The notes beneath the pieces are model-generated. The model made no database searches, was not told the origin of the DNA, and was given only the letters and a program-made list of their open reading frames with translations. Source: Thermoanaerobaculum sp. (GTDB taxonomy: Bacteria > Acidobacteriota > Thermoanaerobaculia > Multivoradales > UBA5704). Taken from it: 64,000 nucleotides of DNA. Shown piece by piece: positions 57,494-62,498 of the stretch. The position numbers were made by a program, and so were the translations under genes. Numbering within the stretch: position 1 is the stretch's first letter; each line of letters starts with the position of its first letter. The DNA is taken from assembly GCA_021154885.1 (NCBI GenBank), contig JAJKHS010000143.1:62001-126000 (forward strand). Reading direction: 5' to 3'.

Positions 57494-59287
57494 ATGACGC
57501 ACGTCACGAAGAGAATTTTTGGTATCGATCTGGGAACCACCAACTCCTGTCTGGCGGTGATGGAGGCCGGCGGGCCGCGCGTCATCGCCATCGAGGGCGA
57601 GCCCATCGTGCCGTCGGTGGTGGGCCTCGACCGCCAGACGGGCCGCTTCCTGGTGGGCCGGAGAGCGAGGAATCGCCAGGTGCTCGAGCCGGCCTGGACC
57701 GTGCGCTCGGTCAAGCGCCGCATGGGGGAGACGGCGCGCGTGCGGCTGGGCGACCGGGAACTGCTGCCCGAGGAGGTGTCGGCCGAGATCCTCCGCTATC
57801 TGAAGGAGCAGGGCGAGGCGGCGCTGGGCGAGCCGGTGGAGCGGGCCGTGATCACCGTACCCGCCTACTTCGGTGACGCCCAGCGCCGCGCCACCATCCG
57901 TGCCGGCGAACTGGCCGGCCTCGAGGTGGTCCGCATCCTCAACGAGCCCACGGCCGCGGCTCTCGTCTACGACCGCCTGGTGGCCCGCAAAGTCGAGCCC
58001 CAGGCCGTGGAGGCGGCGCCGGCCCCTGCGGGCACGGCGCTGGCCGTCCCGGGCCGCCGCGCCGGGGCCGATGTCCAGCGCGTCCTCGTCTACGACCTCG
58101 GGGGCGGCACTTTCGACGTCTCGGTGGTGGAGATCGGCGGTGGCATCAACGAGGTGCGGGCAAGCTGCGGCAACAATCAACTCGGCGGCGACGACTTCGA
58201 CCGGTTGCTGGCGGACCATCTGGCCGCGCATCTGCGGCAGCGGACGGGCCGCGACCTCCCCGAGGACCTGCGCCTCCGCGCGCGTCTGGAGGACGCCGCC
58301 GAGCGGGCGAAGATCGACCTCTCCTCCCGTCCCTACGCCCAGGTGACGGAGGAGGCGCTGGTGGGGGGCTTTCACCTCAACCTGGAGGTGGACCGGCCCA
58401 GCTTCGAGGAGCTGATCGACGGCCTGCTCGCCAGCACCCTCGCGGAGGTGGACCGGGCCCTGAGCGAGGCCCGCCTTACAGCGAAGCAGATCGACCTGGT
58501 GATCCTGGTGGGCGGCTCGACGCACGTCCCACGGGTGCGGGAGCTGCTCGCCGGGCGCTTTTCCTGTCCGGTCGAGCATGCCGTCGATCCAGCTCTCTGC
58601 GTGGCCCTGGGAGCCGCCGTCCAGGGGGCGATCCTCGCCGGCCAGGTGTTCGACCACATCCTGGTCGACGTGGCCGCCCACTCTCTGGGTATCAAGACCC
58701 TGGACCACGCTTCTGAAGGCGGTTTCTGGGGCCGCCCGCGGGCCAACCATTTCTCCACCATCATCCAGCGCAACACGCAGGTGCCGGCGACCCGGTCCGA
58801 GGTCTTCAGGACTCTGCTGGACGACCAGAAGAGCGTGGCCGTCGAGGTCTACCAGGGCGAGAGCGCCCGCTGCAGCGAGAACACCCTGGTCGGCCACTTC
58901 CCGTTCAAGCTCCTGCCGGCCCCCGCCGGCAGTCCGGTGGTGGTGGAATTCCGCTACGACCTCGACGGCGTCATCCGGGTGATCGTCCACCAGAAGGGCA
59001 CCGACAATCGGCAGGAGGTGACCCTCTCCACCCGCATGCGCGAGCCGGCTCCTGCCGCCGTCGCGGCGGGCACCGCCGGTGCGGTCGAGAACTACATCCT
59101 GCGCAAGGCTCGGGCCTTGACTGCGAGCCTTCCGGCTGGTGAGCTGAGGGAGCGCCTCGCCGCCGCCGCGGAGTCCTACGAGGAGGTTCTGGCCGACGCA
59201 GAGGCAGGTCCCACCGAGGTCGATCCGGCCGAGGAGGAGCTCCTGGAGCTGCTGCAAGAGGCTGAAGAGGCTGCGGTCGGACTGTGA
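57494..59287 (+). CDS. DnaK-like Hsp70 chaperone, atypical
   Basis: A 597-residue Hsp70. The ATPase domain shows [70 protein letters not shown] and [17 protein letters not shown] 40-residue insert rich in Ala and Pro ([20 protein letters not shown]) interrupts the domain between EPTAAA and DLGGGT. The substrate-binding domain is present ([20 protein letters not shown]) but the lid is short. Compared with a housekeeping DnaK (about 640 residues), it is a paralog. The ATG at 57494 has GAGGAG at 7-8 nt. It lies between the GrpE-like gene and the 739-residue gene, whose start overlaps its stop. Confidence 0.9.
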
Positions 59288-61503
59288 GCGGCAAGCGGAG
59301 CCTCAAGAAGCAGCAGAAGCGCCAGGCGTCGGCCTTGGCGCAGCTCGAGGAGCTGTACCGGCGGGGCGCCGACGACGAGTTCCTCGCCCGCGCTGCCGAG
59401 CAGGTTGCGGACCTCGCCGCCTCGCCGTTCGCCGCGAAGTGGGCGGAGGTGGCGGACCGGGCCTTGCGGCAGAGCTTGGCTCGCGCCGACCTCGGCCGGC
59501 TCGGCCACCTCCTCCGTTCTCTGCGCCGGAGCGGTCCACCGCGGCTCCTGGCCCTCCTCGGCGAAGGCGTCCTGGACCTGGCGGCGGGCCGCCTCGACGT
59601 GGCCCGCTCGCGGCTCGCGGCCGTTGCCGCCGGGGGCGCCGCGGAAGGCGCCGCCGGCGCGCTTCCACCGCGTCTCCTCGCGGACCTCCGGGCTCTGGCC
59701 CGGGACGCGCCGGACCCGTCCCAAGATGACCCCTACCTGCTGGCGGTGGCGGAGCTTTTCGCTGCGTTTCAGAATTTGGAAACGCGAGGCTTCGCACCGA
59801 CCGCGGCGGACCGCGAGGCCCTGGCCCGGGGCCTGCGGACCCTGCGGGACCTGGCTCCGGCGGAGAATTCGGAGGACGCCGAGCGCCGCCGTCTCCTCAC
59901 CGCTGCCGACCAGCATCTGTTGGTGCTCGCCGATCTCGAAGCTCTCGAGACCCGGCTGTCCTCCCTTCCGGAGCCCCCTGAGAGCCCTGAGGCGCGGGCG
60001 AGCCGGGTGGTCGCCGACTGGCTCCGCGCTCCCGGACCGTCGCTGACCGCGGCGCTCGACGCCTCCGTGCCGCCTCTGCTCGCCCCTCTCCAGTACGCCG
60101 TATGGATGCGGTGGCGGAGCGTGCTGGAACGGGTGGCGGCGCAGGAGGGGGCGTCAGGGCTCGCGGCCCTCTGCGCCGCCGATCCCCGACTCCTGAACCA
60201 CGACGTGGACCTGCAAGGGAGCGGTCTCGCAGGTCTCCGGCAACGGGCCCAGGCGCAGCAGCTCCTGGCCATGAGTCGCTACGGCGAGCTGGCCCAGCTT
60301 CTCCGGTCGCGCAGCCGGGCCGCCGCCGAGCCTGGAGACCTGGCGGCGCTCTGGAGCCTGGAGCTGTGGGCCTGCCGGCGGATCCCCGACGAGCCGGAAG
60401 CCGAGGAGTACGAAGACTGGGCGCCGGATCTCCCCGAGCCTTTCCATCATGGCACTCTCGTCCGTCTGGGAGAGATGGCCGCCGAGGTCGGGCGGCGCTT
60501 TCCGGCCGGGCAGCGCGCCGAGGTGGCGCGGGTGCTGGGCGACGAGCTGATCGAGCTCTGCGAGGCGGTCGACTTCTGCGACCACACGGCGACGGCGGCC
60601 CTGTCGCTGCTGGAGCATCTGCCCGGCGACCTCGGCCTGCTCATCGCGGGCGTGGCCGGGGCTCTTGCGGGCGGCCGTCTCCGCACTCTCCGCACCCTGG
60701 AAGCTCTCATCGAGCGCCGCGGCCAGGCGAACGCGAGCCCGGAGCACCTCCGCGCGATCGAGCAGCGGCTGATGGCCCAGGTCGCCCAGGAGAGCCCGCG
60801 GACCCTGGCGCGGATCCTCGACAAGGTGAGACCGCTGTTCTCCGGCGACGCCTGGCCGGCGGTCGCGGAGCTCGTGGCCCGGGAGATGGGCGGCAACTTC
60901 GCCCGGCTCCTGTGGTCGGCAGGCTTCGAAACCCTGGAGAGTCCCGAGGCGGCAAGGCGGATAGCGCAGAGCGCTCGCGAGAGGCTCGACCTCCTGCGGC
61001 CGGCTCTGGGTGGGACCCTCGGCTTCGCCGCCGTGGACCTGACCCTCGACTGCTGGCGGCCGGACCGGCCGGCGGTGGAGAAGCGGCTCGCCAGGTTCCT
61101 GGCCGGCGTTCCCGGCTGGGAGGGCGTCCTCGTCGCCCTCCAGGTGATGAACAAATTTCTCATCCCCTGGGCGCCAAAGGGTCTGGGCATGGCCTTCGGC
61201 AGCCTTGCCCAGGCGGCGATTGACCGCCTCGATGACCGGTGGCAGCTCTGGGGGCGAGCGGTGCCGATGCTGGCCCTCACCGCCGGCGGCGGCCATCTCC
61301 AGGGCCTGGAGAAAAAGGTCCGGCAGCTCCTCGCCTCGCCCGAGATCCAGGGGGAGGGCCGCGAGGTCCTCGAGGAGGGTCTGCGGGCGATCCACCGCGT
61401 CGAGAGCCTGAAGCGCGAGCGTGAGCGTCCTCGCCGGCGTCCGCAGAAGAAGAAGCCCCGCCGCAGTCGCGGCGGCGTCCCCAAGCTCCGGCTGGACATC
61501 TGA
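59284..61503 (+). CDS. Large helical protein of the Hsp70 cassette
   Basis: A 739-residue, almost all helical protein. The GTG start overlaps the Hsp70 stop (GTGA), a sign of translational coupling. The N-terminus is basic ([20 protein letters not shown]), the middle has repeated helical pairs resembling TPR or HEAT ([40 protein letters not shown]), and the end is very basic ([17 protein letters not shown]). No catalytic motif was found. I recognise no named family. As the partner between an Hsp70 and a J-like protein, it may be a client-binding or nucleic-acid-binding subunit of a specialised chaperone machine. Confidence 0.75.
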
Positions 61504-61520: not shown

Positions 61521-61886
61521 TTGGAGACTCCGCACGACGTCCTGGGGTTGCCGGCCTCGGCCACCGCCGAAGAGGTCACCCGCGCCTACCGCAAGCTGGT
61601 GCGCCGCTATCCGCCCGAGCTCGCCCCTGAGCAGTTCGCGCGCATCCATCGCGCCTATCAGCTCCTGACCTCCCCCGAGCGGCGCATGGCGGTGGTGCGG
61701 ACCGCTCCCGAGGAGGCGATCGATCAGCTATTTCCCCTGCCCGTGCCGGCCCTCAAGGCTCCGCCCCCACTCCCTCCCGCCCTCGCCGAACGAGACCTGG
61801 AGCCGCTCCTCGCTCCCTTTCGTCGCGCCCGGCTCGTCCGTATCCTGCGTGAAGCCTTCACGGAAGGCGGAGGAAACGGGGAGTGA
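61521..61886 (+). CDS. J-like protein lacking the HPD motif
   Basis: A 121-residue protein. Residues 4-55 fit a J domain: PHDVLGLPASATAEEVTRAY is helix I-II, RKLVRRY ends helix II, and FARIHRAYQLLTSPERR is helix III. The HPD tripeptide that stimulates Hsp70 is replaced: after RRY the sequence is PPEL, so the His and Asp are both gone. The rest is Pro-rich and helical. The start is TTG at 61521 with GGGGGAG six bases away (another TTG at 61515 lies directly against it). It may hold the Hsp70 without activating ATPase, or activate it in a different way. Confidence 0.75.
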   Translation: METPHDVLGLPASATAEEVTRAYRKLVRRYPPELAPEQFARIHRAYQLLTSPERRMAVVRTAPEEAIDQLFPLPVPALKAPPPLPPALAERDLEPLLAPFRRARLVRILREAFTEGGGNGE

Positions 61887-61987: not shown

Positions 61988-62140
61988 ATGAAGAAGCAAG
62001 CCAAGAAGCTCACGCTGGCCAAAGAGACGCTCCGTAACCTGGAAGGTAAGGATGCCAAGCTCGTGAACGGCGGCATCAGCGGCAGCGCCTGCACGAATCC
62101 CACCTGCATCAAGCTCTGTCCGGTTACCAAGGACTGCTAG
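61988..62140 (+). CDS. RiPP precursor peptide, lanthipeptide-like leader, copy 1
   Basis: A 50-residue peptide. Leader KKLTLAKETLRNLEG is of the K-x-L-x-L-x-K-E-T-L type used by class I lanthipeptide precursors, then KLVNGG as a double-Gly cleavage site near residue 29. The core, about 21 residues (ISGSACTNPTCIKLCPVTKD plus a final Cys), has four Cys with Ser and Thr before them, which suits thioether rings. The ATG at 61988 is used; an open frame upstream to 61883 starts inside the J-like gene. No lanthionine synthetase, cyclase or exporter is in the window, so modification must come from elsewhere. The gene lies 101 bp behind the Hsp70 cassette. A second copy follows. Confidence 0.72.
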   Translation: MKKQAKKLTLAKETLRNLEGKDAKLVNGGISGSACTNPTCIKLCPVTKDC

Positions 62141-62157
62141 ACCAGAAGCCTCGTAAC

Positions 62158-62184
62158 GGGTGGGCGGTCCGAGGCCGCCCACCC
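62158..62184 (+). terminator. GC-rich hairpin behind RiPP precursor 1
   Basis: GGGTGGGCGG and CCGCCCACCC are perfect 10-bp arms around TCCGAGG. No T-tract follows. The same stem recurs behind copy 2 at 62434, so the unit of duplication includes the hairpin. Confidence 0.6.
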
Positions 62185-62269
62185 GAACCCTGGCCATGAG
62201 CAACTTTCTCTATTATACTCCTGATCCGGCCAATCCAGGCCGCTCGTCGTGGATTAGGAGAGCCCATCC

Positions 62270-62419
62270 GTGAAAAAGCAAATCAAGAAGCTCGTGCTGG
62301 CCAAGGAAACCCTCCGCAACCTGGAAGATAAGGACGTCAAGTACGTGAACGGCGGCCAGAGCGGCAGCAGGTGCGGCAACCCCACCTGCATTCAGGACTG
62401 CGGGACCACGACCTGCTAG
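62270..62419 (+). CDS. RiPP precursor peptide, lanthipeptide-like leader, copy 2
   Basis: A 49-residue peptide. GTG start with AGGAG at about 9-10 nt. The leader KKLVLAKETLRNLEDKD and KYVNGG are nearly identical to copy 1. The core (QSGSRCGNPTCIQDCGTTTC) again has four Cys with a conserved C-x-NPTCI block, but otherwise differs, so the pair looks like diversifying substrates of one modifying enzyme. It is separated from copy 1 by a hairpin and 85 bp. Confidence 0.72.
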   Translation: MKKQIKKLVLAKETLRNLEDKDVKYVNGGQSGSRCGNPTCIQDCGTTTC

Positions 62420-62433
62420 CAGGTGTGTGATCC

Positions 62434-62460
62434 GGGTGGGCGGCCCCGAGCCGCCCACCC
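62434..62460 (+). terminator. GC-rich hairpin behind RiPP precursor 2
   Basis: GGGTGGGCGGC and GCCGCCCACCC are perfect 11-bp arms around CCCGA. Same stem as at 62158. No T-tract. Confidence 0.6.
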
Positions 62461-62498
62461 GCTCCTGAAGTCTCCTGACACCACAGCCCGGAGGCGAC

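Follow-up and report, generated by a model that had tools for sequence, protein, structure and literature searches.

A tandem pair of putative class I lanthipeptide precursors in a dispersed, genome-wide set of an acidobacterial genome

Results

Structure of the locus

The analyzed window, a stretch of 64,000 nucleotides (C143:62001-126000) from an 8.2-Mb genome in 161 contigs, contains two short genes on the forward strand that were annotated as putative class I lanthipeptide precursors. Precursor 1 (61988..62140, +) encodes a 50-aa peptide starting at ATG, with the leader MKKQAKKLTLAKETLRNLEGKDAKLVNGG and the core ISGSACTNPTCIKLCPVTKDC, and was assigned by homology to its neighbor and to about 50 leaders in the genome; precursor 2 (62270..62419, +) encodes a 49-aa peptide starting at GTG, with the leader ...KKLVLAKETLRNLEDKDVKYVNGG and the core QSGSRCGNPTCIQDCGTTTC. 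The mechanical call of the precursor 1 reading frame reaches upstream to a GTG at 61883; homology begins only at the ATG at 61988. A preliminary description of two 49–50-residue peptides with nearly identical leaders and different Cys-rich cores was borne out by these reading frames, which share 83% identity over the first 29 residues and 73% over the entire peptides, with C-x-NPTCI common to both otherwise differing cores. Comparison of their codons revealed a near-even split of changes in the leader (6 synonymous and 5 non-synonymous) and an excess of non-synonymous changes in the core (4 synonymous and 7 non-synonymous). Neither precursor matched any Pfam model or any entry of the plasmid collection.

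Each gene is followed by a GC-rich hairpin (62158..62185 and 62434..62461, both +) whose arm sequences are identical between the two copies, as the preliminary description had stated, and about 30 bases 5' of the two genes are also similar to each other; the pair therefore looks like a tandem duplication at the sequence level. Both hairpins have near-perfect stems, for which no such patterns are expected in window shuffles, and folding z-scores of -4.7 and -4.5. Since both are without a U-run, they are not classical intrinsic terminators, and the one behind precursor 1 is probably a U-less terminator or an mRNA 3' end. A promoter-like site (TGGCCA, 17, TATACT; 62191..62219, +) lies in the intergenic region between the precursors as a consensus match only (1 found, 0.1 expected). 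The Rfam scan of the region yielded two weak matches, to snoRNA families, both under the gathering score.

We considered the hairpin as a signature of the precursor family and rejected it, because the single further exact copy in the genome (C120:32397) follows an unrelated small secreted Cys-rich ORF, and other precursors carry other stems. The peptide in front of this third copy (L247:1539-1775, minus strand, on C120) is small, probably secreted and Cys-rich (MKKLKLILMAAVMTASAIV...CCRCDGF). An upstream regulatory motif common to the precursors was likewise rejected, as the ribosome-binding site alone recurs; about 60 bases 5' of the leader are common to a few precursors and to copies in a relative.

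The upstream neighbors of the pair encode GrpE, Hsp70, a 739-aa protein and a J-domain protein, and the downstream neighbor encodes an alpha/beta hydrolase. The 739-aa protein of this Hsp70 cassette (window 59284-61503) has no Pfam match. Whether the proximity to the cassette is meaningful had been left open earlier; a functional tie was rejected, since the 739-aa protein was not found in three relatives with the same leader family, and the Hsp70 neighborhood looks coincidental.

Leader family and its distribution in the genome

The leader of the pair follows the pattern L-x-L-x-K-(5)-L and terminates in GG. Walker et al. 2020 (PMC7268733) described the corresponding motif, L-x-L-x-K-x5-L with GG, in class I LanA of Bacteroidetes, whose class I clusters often encode a C39 protease cutting at GG (PMC7268733). 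Against NF038153, the NCBIfam model of the class I lanthipeptide leader (lant_leader_L1a; cut-off 22 bits), precursor 2 scored 24.6 bits, over the cut-off, and precursor 1 scored 17.6 bits, under it. Both genes are short ORFs with a class I leader and a core containing Cys and Ser/Thr, with precursor 1 under the NF038153 cut-off, and LanB and LanC are encoded in the genome at sites not adjacent to the pair. The two peptides add new members to an established family of precursors.

Further precursors with this leader, for which the preliminary description had suggested a search, were found by the dozen: a search of the genome with NF038153 gave 49 matches up to an E value of 10, 22 of them over the cut-off, and a profile built from the genome's own leaders gave 52. 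One of the L1a-leader precursors lies on the same contig before the window (C143:50420-50605). The set thus comprises about 50 precursors, 43 of which were read by hand. Their leader consensus is KKxxKKLxLxKETLRxL...GG/GA. Cys makes up 16.8% of the core residues, Thr 15.1% and Ser 8.6%, whereas the leaders contain 2 Cys among 1218 residues. The cores are hypervariable, ranging from about 20 to 53 residues and mostly containing 3–14 Cys; one is Cys-free, a hydrophobic core (TLPLTVTLVPLATALAIETGILVYHAYKNVTG) behind a family leader at C88:14985. For only about three precursor genes is the distance to a class I enzyme about 10 kb or less: those at C75:2273 and C1:110762 adjoin LanC, and that at C1:32704 has a LanC/LanB pair about 8 kb away. 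Precursors examined in context occur singly, in pairs or in threes amid unrelated genes. Nearly all members of the set stand alone, and the genome combines one leader and variable cores with few enzymes.

The family is represented here by four genomes, this one and three relatives, and the leader profile matched 42, 32 and 10 sites in the relatives. No near-identical copy of the window pair was present in these three. Where flanks are syntenic, a precursor is retained with a related but altered core (e.g. C91 here and C1148 in G002). Such retention of the leader with change of the core fits conserved leader recognition combined with fast-changing cores.

Lanthipeptide enzymes encoded outside the window

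The window contains no match to LanB, LanC or C39 peptidase, in agreement with the earlier statement that no synthetase, cyclase or exporter is encoded there. The preliminary description named the lack of any modifying enzyme in the genome as a refutation of the lanthipeptide reading, and the reading survived this check: the genome encodes two full-length LanB proteins of 1112 and 1074 aa (C75:4618-7956 and C1:42286-45510), each containing the two dehydratase domains, together with three LanC proteins of class I type (C75:2576, C1:40943 and C1:111160). Each full-length LanB has a LanC gene close by, giving two complete class I pairs, both outside the window. The LanB proteins resemble MibB and NisB; the LanC proteins resemble NisC and retain the WCYG and CHG motifs. 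The named LanB proteins closest to these (64–77% identity) are encoded in MAGs of Thermoanaerobaculia, Holophagales and Acidobacteria gp7, which suggests an origin of the genome in this part of the Acidobacteriota. Three C39 peptidase domains are encoded in the genome, for example in a C39-peptidase ABC transporter at C81:79985.

A third LanB is split (C83:22999-27318; a 287-aa C-terminal domain and 863 aa) and follows four tandem small ORFs of another type (MTQKPETKSKALxLEVE...CNPGCG). Further lanthipeptide enzymes are encoded as well, namely five LanM proteins, a single LanKC and HopA1/LanC proteins of class V-like type, so that the genome appears, from its gene content, to encode four lanthipeptide classes (LanB, LanM, LanKC and class V-like). 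Two loci resemble class V enzymes: a HopA1-LanC fusion protein (C45:83146-86601) and a three-gene set with a free LanC last (C144:29153-32536). About 5 kb before the window start lies a class II LanM (TIGR03897; C143:53466-56816), preceded by three tandem short ORFs with mersacidin/lichenicidin-like leaders (C143:52614-53398); the one of these that was tested is a mersacidin/lichenicidin-type precursor (TIGR03898-type).

Association of the leader with LanB and LanC

Comparison across the phylum, in a sample of 297 genomes, revealed LanB in all 7 leader-positive genomes versus 26 of the 290 others (Fisher p 1e-7, a value that ignores genome kinship). Among 30 genomes, a subset in which the family was included, LanB was present in 10 of 10 leader-positive genomes versus 1 of 20 others, kinship again being ignored. 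The 26 sampled genomes carry LanB without a detected leader; the leader therefore predicts LanB, and not vice versa.

The leader profile, built from this genome only, also matched 30 of 80 named LanB loci, in 25 cases within 2 kb of LanB, and matched none of the reversed LanB-locus sequences used as a control. Among the matched loci are those of Blastococcus, Corallococcus, Archangium, Paenibacillus, Gemmatimonadetes and Hymenobacter. Ten loci, some in this genome and the rest elsewhere in the phylum, combine a leader-bearing precursor with a class I LanC no more than 1.5 kb away. These three tests are concordant, and judged from gene content and position the leader family belongs with class I LanB/LanC, to which it is tied both physically and phylogenetically.

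Discussion

The pair most likely represents class I lanthipeptide precursors that would be modified in trans. The suggestion of lanthipeptide-like products modified in trans, made in the preliminary description, gains support from the leader motif, from the LanB and LanC genes of the genome and from the linkage of the leader to them; for the modification itself, as for export and activity of the peptides, we infer rather than observe. With considerable confidence, we regard the two genes as tandem-duplicated class I LanA genes within a genome-wide set of about 50 members, served in trans by LanB/LanC. The leader would be bound by a LanB encoded elsewhere (C75 or C1). Dehydration in class I lanthipeptides uses glutamyl-tRNA, and the core Ser/Thr would be dehydrated by LanB through tRNA-Glu-dependent glutamylation and elimination. 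The LanC proteins may then form (methyl)lanthionine rings of a putative pattern at the four core Cys, and a C39-peptidase ABC transporter encoded elsewhere, such as that on C81, may remove the leader behind GG and export the product.

Among other explanations, modification by a LanM, LanKC or HopA1/LanC class V-like set instead of LanB/LanC is improbable. Enzymes of all three kinds are present in the genome, and a LanM gene is located about 67 kb upstream of the pair on this contig; however, this LanM has its own mersacidin-type precursor adjoining, and across genomes the leader family co-occurs with LanB and adjoins LanB or free LanC. We consider it very unlikely that the peptides are GG-leader substrates of radical-SAM or other RiPP enzymes (sactipeptide or ranthipeptide type): their cores are Cys-rich and precursor 2 weakly matches TIGR04149 (GG_sam_targ_CFB), but its score, 16.7 bits, is under the cut-off of 25, the cores are also rich in Thr and Ser, and the linkage is to LanB/LanC. 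Equally slight is the chance that the genes are decayed or unexpressed relics of a mobile precursor family, now functionless, as their orphan position and the absence of the exact pair from relatives might suggest, given that the ORFs are intact, ribosome-binding sites and leaders are kept in about 43 copies, and other species of the family have kept the arrangement.

Under the preferred reading of class I precursors served by distant LanB/LanC, a few enzymes probably turn many dispersed genes into many differing compounds. We lean, with less assurance, toward a broader proposal, in which one or two substrate-tolerant LanB/LanC pairs would serve about 50 dispersed precursors per genome in trans, forming a class I counterpart of the prochlorosins that is characteristic of one acidobacterial family and provides a large peptide library per cell. 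Cluster-based mining, in which precursors are sought near LanB/LanC, would miss nearly all of these genes. If the proposal is true, the class I case would be a second, mechanistically different (tRNA-Glu-dependent) kind of enzyme for peptide libraries, and the question raised by prochlorosins would recur, namely why dozens of distinct ring-bearing peptides should be produced by one cell; antimicrobial and signaling roles are both possible for the products.

The kind of precursor is known, whereas the dispersed class I set is new: no report of such a set was found in the open-access literature, and one may exist elsewhere. The L1a-leader class I precursors (NF038153; PMC7268733) share with those described here the leader motif, the GG/GA boundary, the core of Cys and Ser/Thr and the association with LanB/LanC. 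However, they lie within gene clusters, chiefly of Bacteroidetes (PMC7268733), whereas most of the roughly 50 genes here stand alone, far from LanB/LanC, in a host whose LanB proteins have their nearest named relatives in Acidobacteriota. Precursors of the radical-SAM-modified TIGR04149 type have a similar Lys-rich start and GG-ended leader, but the peptides here fall under that cut-off and are linked to LanB/LanC. In the literature searched, promiscuous enzymes with dozens of distant precursors are class II only (ProcM/SyncM), acting in the prochlorosin and synechococsin systems with 29–83 scattered precursors (PMC10783134). Those systems resemble the present one in their many dispersed precursors, conserved GG leader, hypervariable cores and few trans-acting enzymes. 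In contrast, prochlorosins depend on a class II LanM and a Nif11-type leader, while the present precursors have an unrelated, NF038153-type leader and would be acted on in trans by class I LanB/LanC; neither a ProcM-like LanM modifier nor a Nif11-type leader applies to them. Because the leader is of the NF038153 type and the LanM on the same contig has its own TIGR03898-type precursor, the set appears to work like the prochlorosins without being one of them.
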